The translations under genes were made by a program, and so were the position numbers. This document shows, in pieces, positions 3,981 to 24,716 of a stretch of DNA of 34,748 nt. The notes below the pieces were generated by a model. It was not told the origin of the DNA, ran no database searches, and saw nothing but the letters and a program-made list of their open reading frames with translations. The stretch comes from a virus. The stretch covers positions 1 through 34,748 of the IMG/VR virus record IMGVR_UViG_3300042516_001481. One strand, 5' to 3'. Every line of letters begins with the position of its first letter. Position 1 is the first letter of the stretch.

Positions 3981-4532
3981 ATGATAAAAGCAGAAATAAA
4001 AGGGAAGGAATACGATATTCCAACAAGCTGGGCTGATGTGCCTTACATTAAAGCAATTGAAATAATAAAGATTAAAGAACCTGACTTAGCTTTATGTAAA
4101 TTAATAGGAATTGAAATTGAAGAACTTAACAGCCTTCAAAACAAGTCAGTTGCTATTCTTTATAATTGCGTTCAATTTATTAGTGATGTTTCAATAATGG
4201 AAAGCAATGAGCCAAAAGAAAAATACAAAGATTTTGACTATGGTTCTAAAAGTTATGGCGATACGGAAAAAGTAAGAAACATAATTAGCCAAAATTCAGA
4301 TAAAAGCTTTTTGGATTTAGCACCTGAAATTATTAAACATTTAACTGGGGACGATATAAGTAACGAGCCATTCAGCGATGTAATTGGGACTGTAGGTTTT
4401 TTTTTAAAGCAATGGATGACTTCTACAAGCAATATTCAGAGCTTAATGAAAGCAGTCGGGATGAAAAACAACTTATTGCAGGAATTGAAAGACTCGACAG
4501 GTTCGGGAGCTTCGGTACTTACGTTGAGTTAG
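3981..4532 (+). CDS. Tail assembly chaperone, short form (G-like)
   Basis: A protein of 183 residues starting one base after the terL stop. The N-terminus (IKGKEYDIPTSWADVPYIK) is of a type common in Bacteroidota phages. At residues 140-142 the codons TTT TTT TTA form the heptamer U UUU UUA, and the -1 frame continues open to 4660. This is the layout of the G/GT tail chaperones of siphoviruses, which keep the tape measure soluble during tail assembly. The -1 product would have 226 residues. The tape measure gene is six kilobases further on, further than usual, so the chaperone role is inferred from the frameshift architecture. The C-terminal 40 residues in frame 0 are low complexity (ST-rich). 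Confidence 0.7.
   Translation: MIKAEIKGKEYDIPTSWADVPYIKAIEIIKIKEPDLALCKLIGIEIEELNSLQNKSVAILYNCVQFISDVSIMESNEPKEKYKDFDYGSKSYGDTEKVRNIISQNSDKSFLDLAPEIIKHLTGDDISNEPFSDVIGTVGFFLKQWMTSTSNIQSLMKAVGMKNNLLQELKDSTGSGASVLTLS
4400..4406 (+). other. Candidate -1 ribosomal frameshift site, U UUU UUA
   Basis: Frame-0 codons here read TTT (4401-4403) TTA (4404-4406), preceded by T, which is a canonical X XXY YYZ heptamer and the same one used by HIV-1 gag-pol. The surrounding run is nine Ts (4397-4405). Slipping back by one base leads into KAMDDFYKQY and an ORF ending at 4660. The downstream sequence has no obvious strong hairpin by eye. Confidence 0.65.
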
Positions 4533-4660
4533 CAAGAAAAGGAGCATTGGGTTCTACTATTGAAGAGGTTTTAAAACAATCAACAAGAGTAGTTTACCAT
4601 TTAATGTTATACGATAAATTAAAGTCAGAATACGAAAGAGAATTATTAAAACAAAAATGA
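4412..4660 (+). CDS. Tail assembly chaperone, T-like extension in -1 frame
   Basis: This frame is -1 relative to the gene above and overlaps it by 121 nt. It encodes 82 residues from the ATG at 4412, or 84 if entered at 4406 by frameshift. The sequence is charged and helical (RDEKQLIAGIERLDRFG, then KSEYERELLKQK at the end), as expected for the T domain of a GT fusion. Independent initiation at ATG 4412 remains possible, but the heptamer only a few bases upstream favours fusion to the preceding product. Its stop overlaps the start of the next small gene (ATGA at 4657). Confidence 0.65.
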   Translation: MDDFYKQYSELNESSRDEKQLIAGIERLDRFGSFGTYVELARKGALGSTIEEVLKQSTRVVYHLMLYDKLKSEYERELLKQK

Positions 4661-10374: not shown

Positions 10375-13005
10375 ATGGCAGAGGTTAAACTTTTTGAAGT
10401 CAATTTAGGGGAAACCATAAATAATATAAAGCGTTTAGAAAACGAATTAAAAGAGGTTAAAAAGCAATATAAAGAAGCTCAAATAGGAAGTGAAGCTTAT
10501 TATAAAGCACAAGCTGCTGGAAAGGAATTAACTGCTGAAATTAAAAAGCAAAATGACGCATTAAAAGCCAATACAAACGCATTAGGTGGAGTTAATAGTG
10601 CTGCAAAGTTTGCTGAAGGTAGTTACGGAAAATTAAAGCAACAAATAAAAGAAAATAAAGCGGCATTAGATGCAGCAGTTGAAGGTTCAAAAGAATTTGA
10701 CCAAGCCTTAAAAGAAAGAATACGTTTAGAAAATCAAAGAATTGCTATTGAAGAAAAAATACCATCATTACTTCAAAAAAGAATACAAGGAGGTATTGAA
10801 GAAGCTAAAACAATTCAAGAATTAAGACAACAAATAAAAGAATATACAGCAGCAGTTATAAGAGGTGAAGAAGGAGCTGCTCAAAAGTTAGCTGAACTAA
10901 AAGACAAATTAGAAGATGTAAAAGACGCAACAAATTCTTTTAAGGGTTCTGGAGTTGAAAGGTTAACAGCTTCAATGAATTTATTAAGGGAGTCTTTGGT
11001 TAATGTTGACTTTGATAAATTTAAAGTTGGATTGGAGGGATTAGGGGCTTCAATGAAAGCTATCCCTTTATTTTTATTAGTTGATTTATTAGGAAGATTA
11101 ATTGAAAAATTTGGAATTATTGACGCAGTTGTAAATGCTTTAACGGATGTTTTTTATGCCTTTACAGACGCATTAGGATTTACAAATAAAGAAGCTGAAA
11201 AAGTTGCTAAAACCATGATTGAAGGCATGGAAAAAGCAAATGAAGTAACACAAGCTAAATATGATGCTGAAATAAAACTTGCTAAAGCAGCGGGAAAAAA
11301 TACTGAAAGTTTAGAACTTGAAAAATTAAAAGATGTTGAAATAAATGTATTTAATCAAATACAATTATTAAAAAATTTAGCAGCAATAAAAGGCGAATTA
11401 AATAAAGAAGAGAAAAAAAAATATGAAGAGTTACAATTAGATTTAATTAATGCAACAGCGGATAGAGCCGAAAAAGAAGCTGAAATAAATAAAAAAATAA
11501 GTGATGCTGCAGATGATTATAATAAACAAGTTAAAAGTGCAGCAGATGATTTAAGAAGGTTAAGACAATCTGAAACACAAAACGCCATTGAAGATGCAAA
11601 AAAAGAAAGAGAAGAAAGATTAAAAGAATTAGATAAACAATTTGATGACGGACAAATTTATAATGATGCTGTAAATGGTTCTTTAAAAGAATTTGAAAAA
11701 GCTAAACAAGATATAATTGAAGCTTCTAATTTAAAGATAGCTAAAATAAATGCTGAAGCTGCAAAAGAAGCTAAGGAAAAAAGAAATAAAGCTCATGAAG
11801 AAGAATTAAAAAGACAAAAGGAATTATTAGATGGGGTTAAAAGAAACCAACAAGAAGAAATATCCTTTTTAAATTCTGCTATTCAGGAAAGAAAAAATTT
11901 AAACCAACAATCTTTTGACGAAGAAAGAAAACTTGCTGAATATCAACTTCAAATTGTTTTAACAGATAGAGATGCAACTTATGAGCAAATTTATGCAGCT
12001 CAAGTAGAGTTTGATGCTAAAATGATTGAACTACAAAAAAATCAATTAGCATATGAAAAACAATTACAAGATGAAGCATTTCAAAAAGATATTGAAGCAA
12101 GGCAAACACAACAAAACATAATTATAGAAGAGGAACAGGCATGGAATGAGGTTAATTTTTCCGATGCCATGACTACTTTAGAAACTCAGTTTGAGGCAAA
12201 GCAAGAATTACTTAATTTACAAAGGGAGCAAGAGCTTTATGGTTTAGAAGAAAACTCTTTAAAGTATCAAGAAATAGTTGCTAAATATGCTAACCAAGAA
12301 GTTGAGCTATTAAGACAAAAAGAAGCGGAAAAAGCTGCAATAAGACAAGCTGAAATTAAATCAGTTACCGATACCGCACAAGTAATTTTAAACTTAGGAG
12401 CTTTACTTGCTAAAGACCAAGAACAACAAGCGGCATTTGCTAAAATGGCTGCATTAATTAACATAGGTGCAAATACAGCAACTGCAATTTCAAACTTAAC
12501 AGCAACCTCTTTTTCGGTAAGTTCACCTGACAATATACTAACTGGTGGATTAGCAGCTTACGCTAAGTTAGCAACTGGATTAGTAACTATTACTTCAAAC
12601 ATGGTACAAGCTAAACAGCTTTTAAATTCATTTGAAGAGGGTGGTTATACTGGCGAAGGAAACCCACATGAACAATCAACTAATTTAGGAACTAAAAGCT
12701 ATACTTACCATAAGGATGAATACGTTATTCCTTCACGAGTTTTAAATACTCAAAAGGGTTCAATGTTAGCTTCGCAATTAGAAGGAATGAGGTTAGGTAT
12801 GAGCAATCCAATGCCACATATAAGCGGAATGTTTGACGGTGGATTTACAGGAAGATCTGCAAGTAGTTCAGCAAATATGCAGTTAAGCAATCAAGCAATG
12901 ATGGAAAGAATGATGTTATCAATGCCGCAACCAGTTGTAAGAGTAACTGATATAAATAAAACACAAACAAGTGTTGAAAGAGCTGTTCAAGTTAGCTCAC
13001 TTTAA
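10375..13005 (+). CDS. Tape measure protein
   Basis: A protein of 876 residues, the longest in the genome. Residues 10-200 and about 280-640 are long coiled coil rich in A, E, K and Q; a hydrophobic patch at about 225-265 (MKAIPLFLLVDLLGRLIEKFG) may cross the host membrane during ejection. A second hydrophobic block is at about 680-745. The C-terminal region has the GGYTGEGN and HKDEYVIPSRVLN motifs that end many tape measures. At roughly 1.5 angstrom per residue the tail would be about 130 nm long, in the siphovirus range. No lysozyme or peptidase domain is visible. Confidence 0.85.
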   Translation: MAEVKLFEVNLGETINNIKRLENELKEVKKQYKEAQIGSEAYYKAQAAGKELTAEIKKQNDALKANTNALGGVNSAAKFAEGSYGKLKQQIKENKAALDAAVEGSKEFDQALKERIRLENQRIAIEEKIPSLLQKRIQGGIEEAKTIQELRQQIKEYTAAVIRGEEGAAQKLAELKDKLEDVKDATNSFKGSGVERLTASMNLLRESLVNVDFDKFKVGLEGLGASMKAIPLFLLVDLLGRLIEKFGIIDAVVNALTDVFYAFTDALGFTNKEAEKVAKTMIEGMEKANEVTQAKYDAEIKLAKAAGKNTESLELEKLKDVEINVFNQIQLLKNLAAIKGELNKEEKKKYEELQLDLINATADRAEKEAEINKKISDAADDYNKQVKSAADDLRRLRQSETQNAIEDAKKEREERLKELDKQFDDGQIYNDAVNGSLKEFEKAKQDIIEASNLKIAKINAEAAKEAKEKRNKAHEEELKRQKELLDGVKRNQQEEISFLNSAIQERKNLNQQSFDEERKLAEYQLQIVLTDRDATYEQIYAAQVEFDAKMIELQKNQLAYEKQLQDEAFQKDIEARQTQQNIIIEEEQAWNEVNFSDAMTTLETQFEAKQELLNLQREQELYGLEENSLKYQEIVAKYANQEVELLRQKEAEKAAIRQAEIKSVTDTAQVILNLGALLAKDQEQQAAFAKMAALINIGANTATAISNLTATSFSVSSPDNILTGGLAAYAKLATGLVTITSNMVQAKQLLNSFEEGGYTGEGNPHEQSTNLGTKSYTYHKDEYVIPSRVLNTQKGSMLASQLEGMRLGMSNPMPHISGMFDGGFTGRSASSSANMQLSNQAMMERMMLSMPQPVVRVTDINKTQTSVERAVQVSSL

Positions 13006-16183: not shown

Positions 16184-16924
16184 ATGCCAAGACCAAGACC
16201 AAGAGAAACAAACGAAGAGTTTATCCAACGTTGCATGGGTGATTCTCAAATGATAGGAGAGTTTCCTGAAAATGAGCAAAGATATGCTGTTTGTCAATCT
16301 AAATTAGATATTTATGGAGCAGTTAAAACTTCATTTGATTTTGATGGGGTGTTATCAACTGCAAAAGGAAAGGAACTTGCTAAAGTTACCGAAGGTGATA
16401 TTTATATTATTACTGCAAGACAAAATAGGTCTGGTTTATTAAAAGTTGCAAGGCAATTAAACATTCCTCTATCACGAGTTTATGCAACTGGTAGTAATAA
16501 AGCAAAGATTGAAAAAATAAAAGATTTAGGAATTTCAAAACATTATGATAATAATCATGATGTAATTAAGCAAATAGAAAATGTAGGTATTTATTTTACA
16601 AATTATTTAAATGCTGAAAGTTATAATGACTATCCCGATAGTGTTTCTAATAACGCAAAAAGAGGAATAGAATTAAACGAAAAAGTAAATAATAAATGTG
16701 CTACACAAGTTGGTAAAGTAAGAGCGCAGCAATTGGCTAATAAAGAGAATTTAACTATTGATACCATTCAACGTATGTATTCTTATTTAAGCCGTGCAGA
16801 GACTTATTATGATGAAAGTAATACTGAAGCATGTGGGACAATTTCATATTTGTTATGGGGAGGTAAAGCTGGTTTAAATTGGAGCAGAAAAAAATTAAGA
16901 GAATTAGGATTATTAAATGAATAG
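16184..16924 (+). CDS. Composite protein with HAD-like phosphatase domain
   Basis: A protein of 246 residues that seems to have three parts. Residues 1-40 (MPRPRPRETNEEFIQRCMGD, then EFPENEQRYAVC) resemble a short module found at the front of phage portal-associated or prohead protease proteins. Residues 48-130 have HAD features: FDFDGVLS at 51-58 (nucleophile D52, D54), YIITAR at 74-79 and a late HYDNN with D122. Residues 150-246 (PDSVSNNAKRGIELNEK, then a tryptophan-rich LNWSRKKLREL end) resemble a phage C-terminal domain also seen fused to head proteins. Its role could be phosphate removal from sugar phosphates for the glycan genes that follow, or virion assembly; neither is proven. Confidence 0.6.
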   Translation: MPRPRPRETNEEFIQRCMGDSQMIGEFPENEQRYAVCQSKLDIYGAVKTSFDFDGVLSTAKGKELAKVTEGDIYIITARQNRSGLLKVARQLNIPLSRVYATGSNKAKIEKIKDLGISKHYDNNHDVIKQIENVGIYFTNYLNAESYNDYPDSVSNNAKRGIELNEKVNNKCATQVGKVRAQQLANKENLTIDTIQRMYSYLSRAETYYDESNTEACGTISYLLWGGKAGLNWSRKKLRELGLLNE

Positions 16925-17702
16925 TGAATTAATAAATAGAGTTCAAAATGTTTTGAGCAATCCAAAAGGAATGATTAGAGACCTTTTTGAATTATGCAAA
17001 ACACTTTGCAACCATACTGTAAATGTTAACTGTTCATCATGCGTAACTGAAGGAGTGATGTTACTTACAAACTGGGTTAAAGAAAATAACATTAAGATTG
17101 AAGCACAAAAGTATTTTGTAAAAGCGGTTAACGGTGAGTATGAATTTAAGCCTATTAATTTATTTGTTCAATATTACCAATGTGGAAATGAAGAAAGACA
17201 AAAAGAAATCGATGCATGTTCTAAATTAAACCACAAATTAAAACACTTTAATAAAGTTTTTAGCTTAACAGACAGGCTAAATTATAAACAGATATTTGAA
17301 TTAACAAATGAATATCCTGACTGTATTAATGTAATTGCAAACTCGGATATTTATTTTGATGAAACAATTTTATTTGCTCGTTTTATGAATGAGAATGACT
17401 GCTATGCTTTAAGTCGCTGGGATTATAAAGAAAGTGGACTTGCTGTTTTATTTGATAGGAAAGATAGCCAGGATGCGTGGGTATTTAATGGAGCTGTTAG
17501 GAAAATTGAAAGCGGAAACTATTATTTAGGTACAGCAGGATGCGATAACAGAATTGCATATGAACTTAATAATGCTGGTTATAATGTTTTAAATCCTTCA
17601 AAAACAATTCATGCTATACACTTACACAATTCGGAATATAGAACTTATACAGATAAAGATAGACTTTCAGAACCTTACCATTTTATTTTTCCACATTTAT
17701 GA
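16917..17702 (+). CDS. Glycosyltransferase-like protein (NSDIYFD type)
   Basis: A protein of 261 residues overlapping the previous gene by 8 nt. The catalytic part starts near residue 78 (KPINLFVQYYQCGN) and includes a DxD-like NSDIYFD at 142-148, followed by CYALSRWDY and a late IHAIHLH that may supply a metal-binding histidine. These are GT-A type features. The first 75 residues (with cysteines C27, C31, C39, C42) form an extra helical domain of unknown role. The gene opens a run of five sugar-transfer genes; the sugar and acceptor cannot be read from sequence. Confidence 0.65.
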   Translation: MNSELINRVQNVLSNPKGMIRDLFELCKTLCNHTVNVNCSSCVTEGVMLLTNWVKENNIKIEAQKYFVKAVNGEYEFKPINLFVQYYQCGNEERQKEIDACSKLNHKLKHFNKVFSLTDRLNYKQIFELTNEYPDCINVIANSDIYFDETILFARFMNENDCYALSRWDYKESGLAVLFDRKDSQDAWVFNGAVRKIESGNYYLGTAGCDNRIAYELNNAGYNVLNPSKTIHAIHLHNSEYRTYTDKDRLSEPYHFIFPHL

Positions 17703-18622
17703 AATTATTACACATAGGTCTTTGTGTTTCTGAAGTAGAAAACGGGTTTCAAAAAGCATTTAAACAAGTTTTAGGACCAGAAAATTATTTTGAAATATCA
17801 ACTGCTCATCCTAATTTAAATGGCAATATAATTCAGTTATTTAACGAATGTAAACCTGACTTAGTATTTATGCAAATACAAGCCCCTAACATTGTAGATA
17901 ATCAAACAATGGATTACATGAGTGAAAGTAGTTTTGTTATTAATTGGACTGGTGATAAAAGGGAAGGCATACCTCAATGGATTTTAGATGCTGCACCATT
18001 TGTTTCTTTAAGTTCATTTAGTAACATGGAGGATGTACGAGAAATGCAAAAGTTAGGTTATAAAAGTGAATATTTAGAAATTGGATTTGATGAAACCATT
18101 TACACAAATGAAGGCACAAGTTACCCAAGTGAAGATATTTTAGTTATGGCTAACAATTATGGGAGTGGTTATTTTCCAATGAGTGAATTTAGAATTCAAT
18201 TAGCAAATGAATTAAAATCTAAATATCAAAATAAGTTTGGTTTATATGGTTCGGGATGGGCAAATGGAAACGGTAATGTTAACCATTCTCAAAGCGTAGA
18301 AGCTCAATACTACAGAGGATGTAAAATAGCCATTAATTGTAGTCATTTTAACGTAGCAAGGTATAATAGTGACAGACTTTTAAGAATATTAGGTAGTGGA
18401 ACTTTTTGTTTGTCATATAAGCATCCTGAAATGGAACAGGATTATGAGAATTACAAACATTTAGTTTATTTTGAAAGTATAGAAGATTTAAAAAATAAAA
18501 TAGACTATTATTTAGAAAACGAAGAAGAAAGAAAACAAATTGCTGAAAATGGAAGGCAATTAGTTTTAAATAGAAATACATTTAAGCATCAAGTAGAAAA
18601 CATAATAAAATTAGCACAATGA
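17699..18622 (+). CDS. Glycosyltransferase, GT-B / CgeB-like
   Basis: A protein of 307 residues with GT-B features: an N-terminal Rossmann-like start (MKLLHIGLCVS), CKPDLVFMQIQAPN in the first domain, and a second domain with KFGLYGSGW, a nucleotide-sugar site region around CKIAINCSHFNVARYNSDRLLRILGSGTFCLS (about 209-240), and the final SIEDLKNKIDYYLENEEER segment common to group-1 transferases. It begins by ATGA overlap with the previous gene and its stop overlaps the next start, so all are made from one transcript. Confidence 0.8.
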   Translation: MKLLHIGLCVSEVENGFQKAFKQVLGPENYFEISTAHPNLNGNIIQLFNECKPDLVFMQIQAPNIVDNQTMDYMSESSFVINWTGDKREGIPQWILDAAPFVSLSSFSNMEDVREMQKLGYKSEYLEIGFDETIYTNEGTSYPSEDILVMANNYGSGYFPMSEFRIQLANELKSKYQNKFGLYGSGWANGNGNVNHSQSVEAQYYRGCKIAINCSHFNVARYNSDRLLRILGSGTFCLSYKHPEMEQDYENYKHLVYFESIEDLKNKIDYYLENEEERKQIAENGRQLVLNRNTFKHQVENIIKLAQ

Positions 18623-19359
18623 AAGTTTTAGGATTTATGCCTATTCATTACGGAATAGAATATTTAAAAGAAAGTTTATTATCAATTAAAGACCATGTGG
18701 ATGGAATGGTTATTAGTTATACTCATAAACCTTCGCATGGTTTTAAAACAATTTTAGAATGCCCTGACAAAGCGGAGGATATAAGAAAAATATGTGAAGA
18801 AACTTTAAAAGATAAATTAATTTGGGATGAGGCTGAATTTTATGGAGCTGAATTTCAACACAGAAACGTTGCTAAAAAATACTCACAAGGATTTGATTTA
18901 ATTATTAGCATTGATGCGGATGAAGTATTTGAACCAACTGAAATAGAAATAGCTTTAAAATACGCTTATACGCATAATGAAAGGTATTATGGAATAAAAG
19001 GATATTTAAATTTTTGGAGGTCTTTTAATTGGATTTGTTTAGATGGTTTTAGACCTATAAGAATAGAGAATTTAAACAGACACAATTCGTTACAGAATTT
19101 AGAATGTCCTTTAACTATTTATCATTTTAGCACTGCTCAAAAACGTGAAATAATGGAATATAAATACTCTTGTTTTGGACACGCTAACGAAATTAAAAAG
19201 GATTATTTAGAAAATATATTTTATAAATGGACTCCTGAAAATAACTTTGGCGATTTGCATCCAGTTTCTTTAAATCTTTGGAATGCTATTAAGTATGATA
19301 AAAATAAATTGCCTAACTTTATGCACTCACATCCAAACTTTAATAAATTATTGATATGA
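18619..19359 (+). CDS. Glycosyltransferase family 2-like protein
   Basis: A protein of 246 residues with a GT-A fold: MKVLGFMPIHYGIEYLKESLLSI at the start, FDLIISIDADEVFEP at 92-106 with the metal-binding DAD at 99-101, and an acceptor-site region with H and W residues (LTIYHFSTAQ, FYKWTPENNFGDLHP). It lacks a membrane segment and so acts in the cytoplasm. Its start overlaps the stop of the previous gene. A 26-codon ORF lies between it and the next gene but is probably not real. Confidence 0.75.
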   Translation: MKVLGFMPIHYGIEYLKESLLSIKDHVDGMVISYTHKPSHGFKTILECPDKAEDIRKICEETLKDKLIWDEAEFYGAEFQHRNVAKKYSQGFDLIISIDADEVFEPTEIEIALKYAYTHNERYYGIKGYLNFWRSFNWICLDGFRPIRIENLNRHNSLQNLECPLTIYHFSTAQKREIMEYKYSCFGHANEIKKDYLENIFYKWTPENNFGDLHPVSLNLWNAIKYDKNKLPNFMHSHPNFNKLLI

Positions 19360-19423
19360 TAGTTTATCATTTTTATGATGGGATTTTTGAGGTTTTTAAA
19401 TGTAAAATATATACGTTACAATT

Positions 19424-20026
19424 ATGCATGAATTAGCAGCTGTTATAGTAGATACAAGAAGATTAAGTTTGTATCAAGTTATTACTGAACATCTTTATTA
19501 TTTACCAAATTACACAAAGCTTTATATTTTTAGTTCAGAAGACAATAGGCACTTACAAGAAATGCTTAATTGTGAATTTCATGTAGTTGAGGTAAACACT
19601 ATTAATTGTTACAATAAACTTTTAAAAAGCAAGGAATTTTGGAATAAGATTAAAGAAGAAAATGTATTAATTTTTCAAGAAGATAGCAGATTATTAAAGG
19701 AAGGAATTGAAGATTTTTACGAGTGGGATTATGTTGGAGCAACTTGGAACTTTCATCCTTTTGTTGGAAATGGCGGTTTATCATTTAGACATAAATCAGC
19801 AATGCTTAAAATTTTAGAAACTTGCAATCCTGAAAATGATATGAACGAAGATATTTATTTTGCGTGGGGATGTAATGTTTTAAAATTAAATATTGCTCCA
19901 GTAGAAATAGCAAATAAATTTAGTTGTGAAACACAATTTCATTTGAAAACTTTAGGCTATCATGCAATTGAAAGTTGGTTAAATGAAGAACAATGCAATC
20001 AAATAAAAAAACAATATAATGGGTAA
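19424..20026 (+). CDS. DUF5672-like putative glycosyltransferase
   Basis: A protein of 200 residues with the pattern of the DUF5672 family: [28 protein letters not shown] at about 85-112, then [15 protein letters not shown] at about 116-130 and [10 protein letters not shown] near 145. The EDS triplet occupies the DxD position and the GNGGLSFR block is the family signature. These proteins are thought to be glycosyltransferases. It follows a 64-base gap, the largest within the cassette, and overlaps the acetyltransferase gene by 8 nt. Confidence 0.75.
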
Positions 20027-20543
20027 TTTAATAGTAGGTGAATATACTTATGGTAATGTAAATAGAAGAGGTAACATGAATAATGTTATTATCGGAAAAT
20101 TTTGCTCAATAGCTATAAACGTAATTGTTGATTCAGGATTTAATCATAATACAAGTTGGGTATCAACATATCCTTTTAATGTAAATTGGGGGACAGATAC
20201 ACCACACAATGCAACTTGTAAAGGAGATATTATTATTGGAAATGACGTTTGGATTGGTGAGAATGTTATAATAATGGGAGGTTTAAATATTGGAAATGGT
20301 GCAATAATAGGAGCTGGTGCAGTTGTAACAAAAGATGTTAAACCTTATACAATAGTTGGAGGTGTACCAGCAAAAGAAATAAAAAAAAGATTTACAGAAG
20401 AGCAAATATCTATTTTACAAGAAATGAAATGGTGGGATTGGAATGAAAGTGAAATTAGAAAAATTGCAAAATATTTAATGAGTACAGATGTAGAAAGTTT
20501 AATCAATTATTATAAATCAAAAAATGAATCAGTTATTAATTAG
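20019..20543 (+). CDS. Hexapeptide-repeat O-acetyltransferase (XAT/CatB-like)
   Basis: A protein of 174 residues with a left-handed beta-helix: hexapeptide repeats [15 protein letters not shown] near 23-37 and [18 protein letters not shown] and [17 protein letters not shown] further on, ending in the conserved [24 protein letters not shown] at 42-53 carries the probable catalytic histidine H43. Such enzymes move acetyl from acetyl-CoA to a sugar or other small acceptor. In this context O-acetylation of a virion or cell-surface glycan is the simplest reading. Confidence 0.9.
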
Positions 20544-21096
20544 AGACAATTTTTATCAATCGTGTAAAACTCCAAGTGATATTAATGAACATTTACCTGT
20601 ACTTTATGACATAGCAAAGGAATGTTCACATATTACAGAAATGGGGGTGCGTTCGGTAGTTAGTACATGGGCTTTTATGTACAGAAACCCGACTAAATTA
20701 ATTGGAATTGATTTGCACGTTCATCCAAATATAGATGAAGCTTTAAAGGTTTATCCTAAATGGGAATTTAAACAAGCAGATACTCTTAAAATTGAAATAG
20801 AGCCGACTGATTTACTTTTTATTGATACCCTACACATTTATACTCAATTAAAAAAAGAGTTGTTTAAACATGGTAAAAAAGCGAAAAAATATATCATATT
20901 ACATGATACAACTACTTACGGGACAGTTGATGAACCAACTGATTGGCAAACTCCTGAAATTATGGAAAACTACAAGCAAGAAGAAAAAAAAGGTTTAATA
21001 CCAGCAATTGAAGAGTTTTTAAATGAAAATAAAGAATGGTATATTTACAGAGAATATACAAATAACAATGGTTTAACTATATTAAAAAGATTATGA
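20524..21096 (+). CDS. Class I methyltransferase-like protein (first of two)
   Basis: A protein of 190 residues. [19 protein letters not shown] at about 38-56 replaces the usual glycine-rich motif I, and [12 protein letters not shown] follows as the acidic strand-2 end. [17 protein letters not shown] and [11 protein letters not shown] are typical of the cephalosporin-hydroxylase/CmcI-like branch of methyltransferases found in surface polysaccharide clusters. It overlaps the acetyltransferase gene by 20 nt. The substrate is unknown; sugar O-methylation is an inference. Confidence 0.65.
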
Positions 21097-21656
21097 CAGA
21101 CAGTACATTTTTATTAGTAGATGGAATAATAGCAGCACAAACTCCATTAGTTGAAAAATCATTTAATAAAATATTAAAAGATTTTAATCAAATAATTGAA
21201 ATTGGTTATGATAGAGGAGCGTTTTCTTTATGGTTACATAAAAATAAACAAAAAAATACAGAACTATTTTGCTATGATATTAATGACGGAGCAAGACAAA
21301 TATTCAATGATGAAATAAAATTTATTGTTGGTAATTGTTTTGAAGAAAAAATAATTGAAGAAATTAAATCAATTATAAATAAAGATGGCAAAACATTAGT
21401 ATTATGTGATGGCGGTGCAAAGAATTCAGAATTTTGTTTTTATTCTCAATTCTTAAAAAAAGGTGATGTAATAATGTGTCATGATTATGCACATTCAGAT
21501 GAAGAATCAATTATAATAAGAGAAAAATTAAACTGGTATGCAGGTCATGAATCACATTATGAAAATATAAAAGATTCAGTTTATAAAGAAAATTTAGAAC
21601 CTTATAATTATGATGAATTTAAAAATTGTCTTTGGGGTAGTTTTATAAAAAAATAA
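21093..21656 (+). CDS. Class I methyltransferase-like protein (second of two)
   Basis: A protein of 187 residues. Motif I is IIEIGYDRGAFSLWL at about 34-48, LFCYDIND follows as strand 2, and LVLCDGGAKNSEF and DVIMCHDYAHSDEES mark the later motifs. The layout is similar to the preceding gene but the sequences are clearly diverged. Both look like CmcI/TylF-type enzymes that methylate or hydroxylate sugars. It overlaps the preceding gene by ATGA and is followed by a leader of 11 bases before the next ATG. Confidence 0.65.
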   Translation: MTDSTFLLVDGIIAAQTPLVEKSFNKILKDFNQIIEIGYDRGAFSLWLHKNKQKNTELFCYDINDGARQIFNDEIKFIVGNCFEEKIIEEIKSIINKDGKTLVLCDGGAKNSEFCFYSQFLKKGDVIMCHDYAHSDEESIIIREKLNWYAGHESHYENIKDSVYKENLEPYNYDEFKNCLWGSFIKK

Positions 21657-21667
21657 ATAAATAAATT

Positions 21668-21997
21668 ATGAATTTAAAATTTAGAATTAAAAGCGAGTTT
21701 TTAGAATGTGATATTATCACAAAAGACAAAAGCGGAAATGATGTGTTGGTTAATAAAAATAATTTTAATGATTATTTTGCTAACTTAATGTTTATAAGTG
21801 GGCAAGGACATTTAATTGAGCAGAACCCTCATTACAATATTGAGTTTAAAGAAAAAAAAACTTTCGAGCAATTATCGGAAAATGTTATTGCATTAACTTA
21901 CGATCCTCTAAAGACCGAAGAGAACAATTTGCAAGAAACTCCAAAAGAGCAAACATCGAAGCCGAAACGTGGAAGGCAACCGAAAGCAAAGGAATAA
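21668..21997 (+). CDS. Hypothetical phage protein; possible frameshift donor
   Basis: A protein of 109 residues. The N-terminal half has strands and the phrase LMFISGQGHLIEQNP; the end is a basic, proline-containing tail (SKPKRGRQPKAKE) seen on small head-associated proteins of Bacteroidota phages. Both parts look like real coding sequence in frame 0. At residues 62-64 the codons GAA AAA AAA carry an A AAA AAA heptamer (21853-21859), and the -1 frame is open from there through a complete glycosyltransferase. A -1 shift would make a 265-residue fusion of the first 64 residues to the GT25 domain. Confidence 0.7.
   Translation: MNLKFRIKSEFLECDIITKDKSGNDVLVNKNNFNDYFANLMFISGQGHLIEQNPHYNIEFKEKKTFEQLSENVIALTYDPLKTEENNLQETPKEQTSKPKRGRQPKAKE
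21853..21859 (+). other. Candidate -1 ribosomal frameshift site, A AAA AAA
   Basis: In the frame of the 21668 gene the codons are GAA AAA AAA ACT; the heptamer A AAA AAA is a known -1 slip sequence. It lies two codons after the last -1-frame stop (TAA 21847-21849), so it is close to the first point where a ribosome could enter the open -1 frame. The run is nine As (21852-21860), so an indel in the assembly is the main rival explanation. Confidence 0.5.
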
Positions 21998-22464
21998 ACC
22001 ATAACGGTTTTTTATTACCGACTGAAATAGCAACACTTCGCAGTCATAAGGCAATACTACAACACTCTTTGAACTTAGGTTTTGAGAGTGTTTTTATTTT
22101 AGAAGATGACGTTGATTTTACAGATGAATTTTTAAACAAGCTAAATGATTGTTTAAATGAATTACCTGAAAATTGGGATGGCATACACTTAGGCGGTTAC
22201 TCACCACTGGGAAGTACAGTTAATTATTCTTTATTCTTAAATAAATGTTTTGCAAGTTGGGGTGGTTATGGTTACATAGTAAATAAAAAAGCTATTCCAA
22301 TAATTTTAGAAACTATAAAAGAAGAGCAGAAACAAATTGATACTTATATCGCATCACTTATGCCTTCATTAAACTGGTTTAAAAGCAAAGAGAAACTTGT
22401 TTTGCATCCGCCTAATCAAAGTACTATATTAAACAAGTGGGTTGACTACAAAGAATTATATTAA
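21859..22464 (+). CDS. GT25-family glycosyltransferase domain in -1 frame, without its own ATG
   Basis: Read from 21859 this frame encodes 201 residues with the GT25 layout: the N-terminal strand CYCINLRSSKDRREQF (12th to 27th residue), LLPTEIATLRSHKAILQHSL in the middle, then VFILEDDVDF with the acidic metal site, and GYGYIVNKKAIPIIL near the end. The frame is open from 21850 but has no ATG, GTG or TTG before a TTG at 22069, and starting there would remove the sugar-nucleotide domain. It overlaps the 21668 gene by about 140 nt, both frames being credible. Entry by -1 frameshift fits best; a rare start such as ATT is the alternative. It completes the sugar cassette before the portal. Confidence 0.7.
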   Translation, partial: NFRAIIGKCYCINLRSSKDRREQFARNSKRANIEAETWKATESKGINHNGFLLPTEIATLRSHKAILQHSLNLGFESVFILEDDVDFTDEFLNKLNDCLNELPENWDGIHLGGYSPLGSTVNYSLFLNKCFASWGGYGYIVNKKAIPIILETIKEEQKQIDTYIASLMPSLNWFKSKEKLVLHPPNQSTILNKWVDYKELY

Positions 22465-22503: not shown

Positions 22504-23877
22504 ATGTTTAAGCCGAGAAGCCTTACTTATAAAAATAGAGTTGTAAAAATTGTAAAAGATAACAATTCCGACTTAATCAAATACGGCATGGATAATGCCT
22601 TTCCTCAAAAATTAGTTCAGCAATTAGATGAAAGCGGTACAGCAACAGCGTGTATTGATATTTTAACACAATATATTTTTGCTGAAGGCTTAGTAAATGA
22701 GCAGTTAGGTGAATTTAAGATTAACGAAAAACAATCTTTTAATGAATTAATTTCTGAAGTAAGTGGGTACGTTTCAATTTTTCAGGCTGTTAGTTTATAT
22801 GTAATGCGTGGCTTAGATGGAAAGGTAAAAGAATTAAAACTTATTCCATTTGAACAAATAAGAAGAACTGATAGAGGGACTTTTATTGTTAATCCTACAT
22901 TCGGAACTAATAAGTACAAAAAAGAAAAAGATAAAGAGTTTCCAGCGTTTTATGGTGCAATAATTACACCAGTAGAATTAAAAGAACACATCATGGAATG
23001 GGGAGAAGATAAAGGTGAAATCCTTTATTACTTCCGTAAAAAACCAATGAAAAATTATTACCCTATTCCGACTTTTTATTCAGCGATTGAAGATATAAAC
23101 ACGGATAGTGAGAATTCTAAATATGAACTTGAAAGTGTTACAAATTCATTTTTACCAAGTGGAATTTTAAATATAGTTGGTAATTATGACGATACGCAAA
23201 GAGATGAAAGCGGAATGACTCAACAAGATTATTTAGATGCAACTTTAGAACAATTTACAGGAAATGTAAAAGACGAAACTGGAGCAAGTGGAAGACAAAA
23301 ACTTTTAATCTTACAAGCAAAAACAAAAGAAGAACTTGCAGTTTATCAGCCTTTGAGTAATGAAGGTATTTTAAATGCAATTGAAAACAGTACTAAAAGA
23401 GTAGCTGAAAAAGTTGCAAGAGCCTTTGGAGTTCCGCCATTCTTAGTTGGCTTAGGCGGTAACGTTGGTTTCTCAACTAATATTATAGCAGATAATATTG
23501 AACTTTTTAACAATAGAGTAAGAGTACTTCAAGAATTAATTACAGACGCATTTGAACAATGTTTTCCACAGTTTGATTTTACATTAACTCAATTAAACCC
23601 GATTAAATACATAAACCCTGAAGTGTTTGCTAAACTTACAGATGCGGAAATAAGGGCAATCGGAGGATATGAAACAGTTGATACAGAACAAACGACAACA
23701 ATTACTTTAGCACAAACGCTTGGTGTTGGTGGCACTCAAAGTTTAGTTGGAATATTACAGGATACTGTATTAACTCCATCTCAAAAAGTTCAAACATTAA
23801 TTATTTTATTTGGATTAAGCGAAGAACAAGCTAACAAACTAATTAACGCAAATGGCATACAAACCACTAATAATTAA
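22504..23877 (+). CDS. Portal protein
   Basis: A protein of 457 residues forming the dodecameric DNA channel of the prohead. The N-terminal part (MDNAFPQKLVQQLDESGTATACIDILTQYIFAEGL) and the central KLIPFEQIRR with later ENSTKRVAEKVARAFGVPPFLVGL (about 299-322) are the pattern of HK97/SPP1-like portals in Bacteroidota phages; the latter is the stretch that precedes the stem and clip. The C-terminal helices are Q- and T-rich. Unusually it sits about 18.5 kb from the terminase genes and downstream of the capsid gene. It overlaps the adaptor gene by 26 nt. Confidence 0.85.
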   Translation: MFKPRSLTYKNRVVKIVKDNNSDLIKYGMDNAFPQKLVQQLDESGTATACIDILTQYIFAEGLVNEQLGEFKINEKQSFNELISEVSGYVSIFQAVSLYVMRGLDGKVKELKLIPFEQIRRTDRGTFIVNPTFGTNKYKKEKDKEFPAFYGAIITPVELKEHIMEWGEDKGEILYYFRKKPMKNYYPIPTFYSAIEDINTDSENSKYELESVTNSFLPSGILNIVGNYDDTQRDESGMTQQDYLDATLEQFTGNVKDETGASGRQKLLILQAKTKEELAVYQPLSNEGILNAIENSTKRVAEKVARAFGVPPFLVGLGGNVGFSTNIIADNIELFNNRVRVLQELITDAFEQCFPQFDFTLTQLNPIKYINPEVFAKLTDAEIRAIGGYETVDTEQTTTITLAQTLGVGGTQSLVGILQDTVLTPSQKVQTLIILFGLSEEQANKLINANGIQTTNN

Positions 23878-24400
23878 GAGCGATTTTGATATTTACGTTA
23901 AGTTAGGAAAGAACGTAAAGGATGCTGACTTGGACCAATTCATAAGGGTTGTACAAGAACTCGATTTAGATTCATGGGTTCCAGCAAACTTTTATACAAA
24001 TTTAAAAAATAACCTTACAACAATGCCACAATTAAATGCATTGTTTGAAGATTACATTAAACCATTTCTTGTTTTAGGTGCTTATTATCGTTTCTTGTTA
24101 TATCATGGTAGAAATATAAGCCAGTATGGAATAAGACAAAATAACGAAGATACAAGCGCAGAAATTAGCGACCAAGTAAGAGCAGCTTTAATGGGAGATG
24201 TTGAAAGCCAAAAAAGTGGTTATTTAAATAAATTAAAAAATAAAATGTTTGATGACAATTTTACGTATGACGGAGTTGTTTACGATTTTTATAATGACTG
24301 CGACAAACACGAATTAAAAAATCAATTAAACATTCGACAATTAGGTGAAAGAAAAATAATTAAAAAAGGAAGGGGGTTTTGTGGTTATCCGAAGGATTAA
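23852..24400 (+). CDS. Head-tail adaptor/connector protein (DUF6712-like)
   Basis: A protein of 182 residues next to the portal. The start MAYKPLIIKSDFDIYVKLG, the DLDQFIRVVQELDLDSWVPANFY segment and the LVLGAYYRFLLYHGRNISQYGIRQN block (about 70-95) match a helical connector of the kind found directly after portals. It would bind the base of the portal and form the platform for the tail. The family label is from memory of pattern, not from a search. Its end overlaps the next gene by 20 nt. Confidence 0.65.
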   Translation: MAYKPLIIKSDFDIYVKLGKNVKDADLDQFIRVVQELDLDSWVPANFYTNLKNNLTTMPQLNALFEDYIKPFLVLGAYYRFLLYHGRNISQYGIRQNNEDTSAEISDQVRAALMGDVESQKSGYLNKLKNKMFDDNFTYDGVVYDFYNDCDKHELKNQLNIRQLGERKIIKKGRGFCGYPKD

Positions 24401-24716
24401 AGGGGACACATATCCCGTAAAAGTTCAAATATCTTCAGAAGATGGGACTGCATTTGATTTGACAAATTGCACTTGCTTTTTTACTGTTAAAAAAAGATTT
24501 GAAGATACAGATGCCGAAGCTTTAATTTCAGTTGATACAACTACCCATGTAGATAGTTTAGAAGGAATTACAGAATTTGAAATGGTTAATGAAAATGTAA
24601 GTTTAGTTGGTTCTTTTATTTATGATATTAAAGTTAAAGATTCAAACGATATTATTTATTCGGTAATTACAGATAAGATAATTTTTGAAAATCACGTTAC
24701 TATAAGGACTTCATGA
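24381..24716 (+). CDS. Small beta-rich structural protein before the tail fibre
   Basis: A protein of 111 residues with a GTG start at 24381 inside the previous gene, preceded by a purine-rich stretch (aaaggaaggggg) that could act as a true Shine-Dalgarno site, rare in this genome. The sequence (IKGDTYPVKVQISSEDGTAFDLTNCTCFFTVKKRFEDTD) resembles the BppU-like immunoglobulin fold of baseplate upper proteins in which a strand set is followed by VGSFIYDIKVKDSNDIIYSV. A tail or baseplate attachment role is likely. It joins the fibre gene through an ATGA overlap. Confidence 0.65.
   Translation: MVIRRIKGDTYPVKVQISSEDGTAFDLTNCTCFFTVKKRFEDTDAEALISVDTTTHVDSLEGITEFEMVNENVSLVGSFIYDIKVKDSNDIIYSVITDKIIFENHVTIRTS

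Follow-up and report, generated by a model that had tools for sequence, protein, structure and literature searches.

How a phage makes a glycosyltransferase whose reading frame has no start codon is the question raised by a locus in the IMG/VR virus record IMGVR_UViG_3300042516_001481. The whole stretch of DNA analyzed here, referred to as the window, covers positions 1 to 34,748 of that record, a 34.7-kb tailed-phage sequence with tape measure and other tail genes, a head protease, a portal, and further late genes. Ahead of the portal gene, a short open reading frame (ORF A) overlaps a glycosyltransferase (GT) frame of family GT25, and a run of nine As (A9) lies where the second frame opens:

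21668..21997, + strand: ORF A, 109 aa, ATG start, zero frame, with a short basic C-terminal tail
21850..22464, + strand: GT25 glycosyltransferase frame, -1 relative to ORF A, 204 codons, no usable start
21852..21860, + strand: A9 slip run, with the heptamer A_AAA_AAA at 21853-21859 in phase with ORF A
21850..21997, + strand: dual-coding overlap of ORF A and GT25, 148 nt, assessed by pN/pS
22504..23877, + strand: portal protein gene (PF04860, E=3.8e-13; phrog_11226, E=3.7e-43)

A GT25 frame without a start codon

The product of 21850-22464 clearly belongs to the GT25 family and is a predicted glycosyltransferase. The frame matches PF01755 (Pfam) with E=4.4e-12 and 46.7 bits against a cut-off of 24, its N-terminal INL..R motif and its EDD motif align to COLGALT1, and residues I15-N16-L17, R23, and E85-D86-D87 are invariant across 18 sequences. 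A structure model of moderate confidence (pLDDT 65) matches the fold of COLGALT1 (Z 11.3, rmsd 4.1, 162 aligned residues) and also those of bacterial beta-1,4-galactosyltransferases.

An earlier examination of this DNA from the letters and translations, here called the sequence-only reading, had noted that the frame is open over its whole length with no ATG, GTG, or TTG before its conserved N-terminal motif, and both an ORF scan and the relatives described below confirm this. The first standard start is a TTG at codon 73, the sole one in the first 100 codons, and it comes after the conserved motif CYCINL. Among the forward stop-to-stop frames of at least 80 codons in the window, with one frame at the window edge set aside, the GT25 frame is unique in having its first start more than 40 codons in.

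The same reading had seen an A AAA AAA sequence within an overlapping upstream gene, just where the -1 frame opens. This also holds, with an overlap of 148 nt and the heptamer in phase with the ORF A codons GAA AAA AAA ACT that span the run. Recomputing a -1 shift at A9 gives the product size stated earlier, 265 aa, made up of ORF A residues 1-64 (through the second AAA, at 21859, the part common to ORF A and the predicted fusion) and the 201 residues of GT25 translated after the slip from 21859-22461.

Conservation of the run and of both frames

A protein scan of IMG/VR with the GT sequence recovered 22 contigs at 59-97% identity, plus four distant ones at about 24%. The 22 relatives come from separate metagenome assemblies and all represent one lineage. 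Every one of them has exactly nine As followed by C, the -1 relation between the frames, an intact GT frame, and no standard start before the GT domain. Counting the window, all 23 sequences (about 16 of them distinct) carry the identical run A9C, which is not attributable to chance. The layout is unchanged in the most distant member, L022, whose identity is 48% for ORF A and 59% for GT. The upstream stop codon that bounds the GT frame varies in position, 0 to 11 codons before the point at which the frame opens in the window, implying that the missing start was not merely inherited together with one fixed stop. The comparison of related phages that had been proposed for a conserved heptamer and overlapping frames therefore found both in 22 of 22 relatives, and neither of the two observations named in advance as counter-evidence, a run of another length or a normal start for GT25, occurs among them.

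Searches from other starting points agree with this picture. A back-translated ORF A motif, a query containing neither the run nor GT, recovered the same 22 contigs, and in portal-based scans the ORF A/GT overlap was present on every close contig covering the region; the one additional contig recovered with the portal, L070, starts within that gene and falls short of the site. Scans with ORF A, with the portal, and with the back-translated motif returned no counter-example to the A9/-1 layout, and genome-contig scans with the portal and with ORF A returned no further, more distant relatives. A tblastn search of annotated phages found only distant GT25s. At the distant GT25 loci (L023-L026) the genes begin with an ordinary ATG, but their identity is only about 24%. 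Two distant portal relatives, L075 and L076, lack ORF A/GT immediately before the portal.

GT25 is under strong purifying selection, and both frames are constrained in the overlap. In the GT-only part, downstream of the overlap, pN/pS is 0.20 for all members, 0.15 without L022, and 0.10 in an eight-member clade, compared with 1.5-3.4 and 16-18 stops per sequence in the other two frames; these and the following ratios are simple pairwise counts made without a tree and are indicative, though the contrast is large. GT is therefore translated. ORF A has a pN/pS of 0.09 upstream of the overlap. Within the overlap, the GT frame has 0.46-0.54 and the ORF A frame 0.37-0.49, against 0.9-1.2 and 3-4 stops per sequence in the third frame, in keeping with the earlier impression that both frames read as protein there. 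This constraint on both frames implies that translation of ORF A also continues beyond the run, and its frame stays conserved in the relatives for about 45 residues beyond A9.

Probable slippage at the nine-base runs and its alternatives

The locus combines a sequence prone to slippage, which lies in phase where the frames meet and is kept in relatives, with a downstream GT frame that is conserved as protein and has no independent start, as is characteristic of programmed -1 recoding. On this evidence, GT25 is very probably expressed only by programmed -1 recoding at A9, as a fusion of ORF A(1-64) to GT25 made beside ORF A. Most ribosomes would read A9 normally and produce the 109-aa ORF A, and a minority of decoding events would enter the -1 frame at A9, either through one extra A added to the mRNA by RNA polymerase or through the ribosome slipping back one base on A_AAA_AAA. 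Both routes would lead to the same 265-aa product, in which the complete GT25 domain of 201 residues comes after ORF A residues 1-64.

Ribosomal slippage on the heptamer alone, with no slippage by RNA polymerase, is a serious candidate to which we assign appreciably less than an even chance. All 23 sequences keep the heptamer in phase, and ribosomal slippage underlies the -1 frameshifts known in phages for tail chaperones and Ig-like extensions (PMC5009743). However, in E. coli A_AAA_AAA shifts ribosomes only modestly (PMC5009743), and no conserved stem-loop or Shine-Dalgarno-like stimulator was found at the site. Folding of the 45 and 90 nt after the run revealed no conserved RNA stimulator: z ranged from +0.4 to -2.1, L022 had no shape in common with the rest, and a hairpin beginning immediately 3' of the run is weak in most members (z about -0.7 to -2.1) and absent in L022. 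There was no Rfam match. An AGGA before the run occurs in part of the relatives only and is absent from the window, and no Shine-Dalgarno-like element is conserved at the A9 site across the window and its relatives. Moreover, seven As suffice for a ribosomal slip, yet nine are always kept, and a second site in the window, a T9 run described below, likewise carries two Ts beyond its heptamer. This last point is not decisive: the flanking As may also be held by the residues they encode, and sequence alone cannot choose between the two slippage routes.

For slippage by RNA polymerase a homopolymer is sufficient. Runs of nine A or T slip efficiently in bacteria (PMC5009743), and both A9 and T9 are A/T homopolymers of about this length that do not vary in size. 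Because no conserved stimulator was found and both sites are nine-base homopolymers, slippage by RNA polymerase appears at least as likely as slippage by the ribosome, and the presence in one genome of two opposite nine-base runs, both at -1 junctions, tilts the balance slightly toward transcription. Within recoding, we would give a little over half of the weight to the transcriptional route, most of the remainder to the ribosomal one, and a small residue to both acting together. The in-phase heptamer on which the sequence-only reading had built its ribosomal slip is present in every sequence, but RNA polymerase slippage would lead to an identical product and accounts for the observations no less well.

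Comparison of all A/T runs of at least seven in the window with six related contigs at the codon level sets these two runs apart. A9 at 21852 is nine long in six of six compared contigs and T9 at 4397 in all five that cover it. Among the A/T runs of at least eight in genes comparable in several relatives, only these two are always intact, the remaining ones being shortened in most or all of the relatives; a few runs had one relative or none to compare. An in-frame A9 at 11413, in the tape measure gene, is lost in every relative aligning there. Lysine codon conservation was considered as proof of the run and set aside as only mild, with AAA in every member at 18 of 51 conserved lysine columns. 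Since codon use makes AAA-AAA fairly likely, the case for A9 is built on the full stretch of nine bases together with the frame junction, rather than on lysine codons by themselves.

The second site is as follows:

4397..4405, + strand: T9 run, T_TTT_TTT in phase, at a second -1 overlap, intact in 5/5 relatives covering it

Phages make tail assembly chaperones by frameshifting, as in lambda G/GT. At T9, an ORF at 3981-4532 (183 aa) runs into a -1 frame at 4364-4660 upstream of the tape measure gene, an arrangement kept in relatives down to 52% identity that has what we take to be the position and form of such a frameshift. By this analogy, the T9 overlap is a candidate tail-assembly-chaperone frameshift. 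No family model names either of its products, and the -1 frame has an ATG shortly after T9. Tentatively, the host RNA polymerase may slip at both A9 and T9 to give two late fusions, one chaperone-like and the other a head-guided glycosyltransferase whose substrate would probably be a virion protein, a combined scheme that we consider possible and regard as having about one chance in three.

Initiation inside ORF A at an ATT, ATC, or ATA codon, perhaps coupled to ORF A translation, would instead release a free GT25. The window has ATT ATC immediately before the conserved motif, and aligned members have an ATT codon (I15 of CYCINL). In L022, however, the stretch from the stop to the motif contains no ATG, GTG, TTG, ATT, ATC, or ATA. 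A start at the shared ATT would cost the fold its first strand, the alignment with COLGALT1 and the galactosyltransferases beginning at about residue 6-11, and internal initiation leaves the invariant A9 unexplained, all of which makes it improbable.

Homopolymers are generally error-prone, but a sequencing or assembly error (a true run one A longer, giving an ordinary fusion) would have to recur in all 23 sequences, which stem from separate assemblies, and in spite of an ORF A conserved in its own frame for 45 residues beyond the run, and a GT pseudogene is at odds with a pN/pS of 0.10-0.20 and a stop or frameshift in 0 of 22 relatives, so that A9 in the 22 relatives and the pN/pS values rule out both. 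An equally negligible prospect is a truncated protein starting at TTG codon 73 or later, the window's first standard start in the GT frame, as this TTG is not common to all relatives and the residues before it, including INL and R23, are conserved, also past the end of ORF A.

The ORF A head, known systems, and neighboring genes

Programmed recoding at A9 would attach the enzyme to the first part of ORF A. Comparison with Pfam, PHROGs, and PDB sequences gave no family match for ORF A, and tblastn found no homologue in annotated phages (best E 0.7). Its structure model is poor (pLDDT 52), with a best fold match of E=0.044. A kinship with a protein upstream of a Bacteroides phage portal was considered and rejected, the proteins being unrelated. 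The sequence-only reading had described a programmed frameshift joining a phage structural-type domain to GT25; the -1 link of ORF A to GT25 stands, whereas the structural identity found neither a match in the three sequence collections nor a confident fold match. Nothing but the portal-adjacent position speaks for ORF A as a structural protein, and that assignment is unsupported. The further suggestion of that reading, that the fusion might bring the enzyme to the virion or prohead, stands as a hypothesis.

The 64-residue head would place the enzyme where ORF A binds and would keep it at a fixed minority relative to ORF A. By analogy with the lambda G/GT and Ig-extension precedents, enzyme placement and a fixed minority dose are the likely role of the shared head. 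The layout of the locus, its constancy in 22 relatives, and selection on both frames are demonstrated, whereas the occurrence of recoding, its efficiency, and a positioning of the enzyme by the head on the binding partner of ORF A are inferred.

Phage -1 frameshifts that produce tail chaperones and Ig-like or carbohydrate-binding extensions are known (PMC5009743, PMC6669499), and the new element here is the type of fused domain rather than programmed recoding. Lambda gpG/gpGT and related chaperones resemble the present case in using a -1 shift in a small late gene to make a short common product and a fusion sharing its N-terminus (PMC5009743). Here, by contrast, the added domain is a GT25 enzyme, the gene precedes the portal rather than the tape measure, and a separate chaperone-like overlap, at T9, exists in the same genome. 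In the T3 capsid, A2, SPP1, and 936-group TpeX proteins, an Ig-like or carbohydrate-binding domain from another frame is likewise added to some copies (PMC5009743, PMC6669499), but those are binding domains on known virion proteins, whereas the present domain is a predicted catalytic glycosyltransferase on a carrier without a known role. Thermus dnaX and Shigella type III secretion genes share the nine-base A/T homopolymer without obvious stimulators, their alternative frame being reached by base insertion in transcriptional realignment (PMC5009743); those cases are cellular genes with experimental proof, and ours is a phage gene for which slippage is proposed. COLGALT1, mimivirus R655, and bacterial beta-1,4-galactosyltransferases share PF01755, the INL and EDD motifs, and the predicted fold, but the phage enzyme differs in having no start of its own and in apparently being produced with a phage head piece of 64 residues fused to it. 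In the open-licence literature, subscription papers lying outside this scope, we found no case of a glycosyltransferase expressed by a phage frameshift.

The programmed frameshifts described in tailed phages mostly lead to tail chaperones or to binding domains added to virion proteins. Here the enzyme can apparently be obtained in no form other than a frameshift fusion; such phages would then also be using recoding to control how much of a sugar-modifying enzyme is made and where it is placed. The GT25 gene would also represent a class of phage genes that annotation based on start codons misses or shortens, and the paired A9 and T9 in one genome could serve as a test system for the exploitation of RNA polymerase slippage by phages.

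ORF A and the GT25 frame sit at the end of a sugar-modifying block, before the portal, and the portal directly downstream of GT25 marks their position as the late or structural region. It is plausible that GT25 modifies a virion component or the cell surface, given the sugar-modifying neighbor genes in the late region. The predicted block extends over 16917-21656, between the capsid region and the portal, and contains glycosyltransferase, acetyltransferase, and methyltransferase genes (Glyco_trans_1_2, DUF5672, hexapeptide acetyltransferase, FtsJ-like methyltransferase, and others). L022 has a comparable block with a different gene content.

Two further variations lie downstream. In the window and six relatives, the portal protein (encoded at 22504-23877; 457 aa) is extended at its C-terminus by about 64 residues, and this extension is without a match in most other relatives (about 394 aa). 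A 111-aa ORF at 24381-24716 has a GTG start in the window and an ATG start in its L022 homologue.
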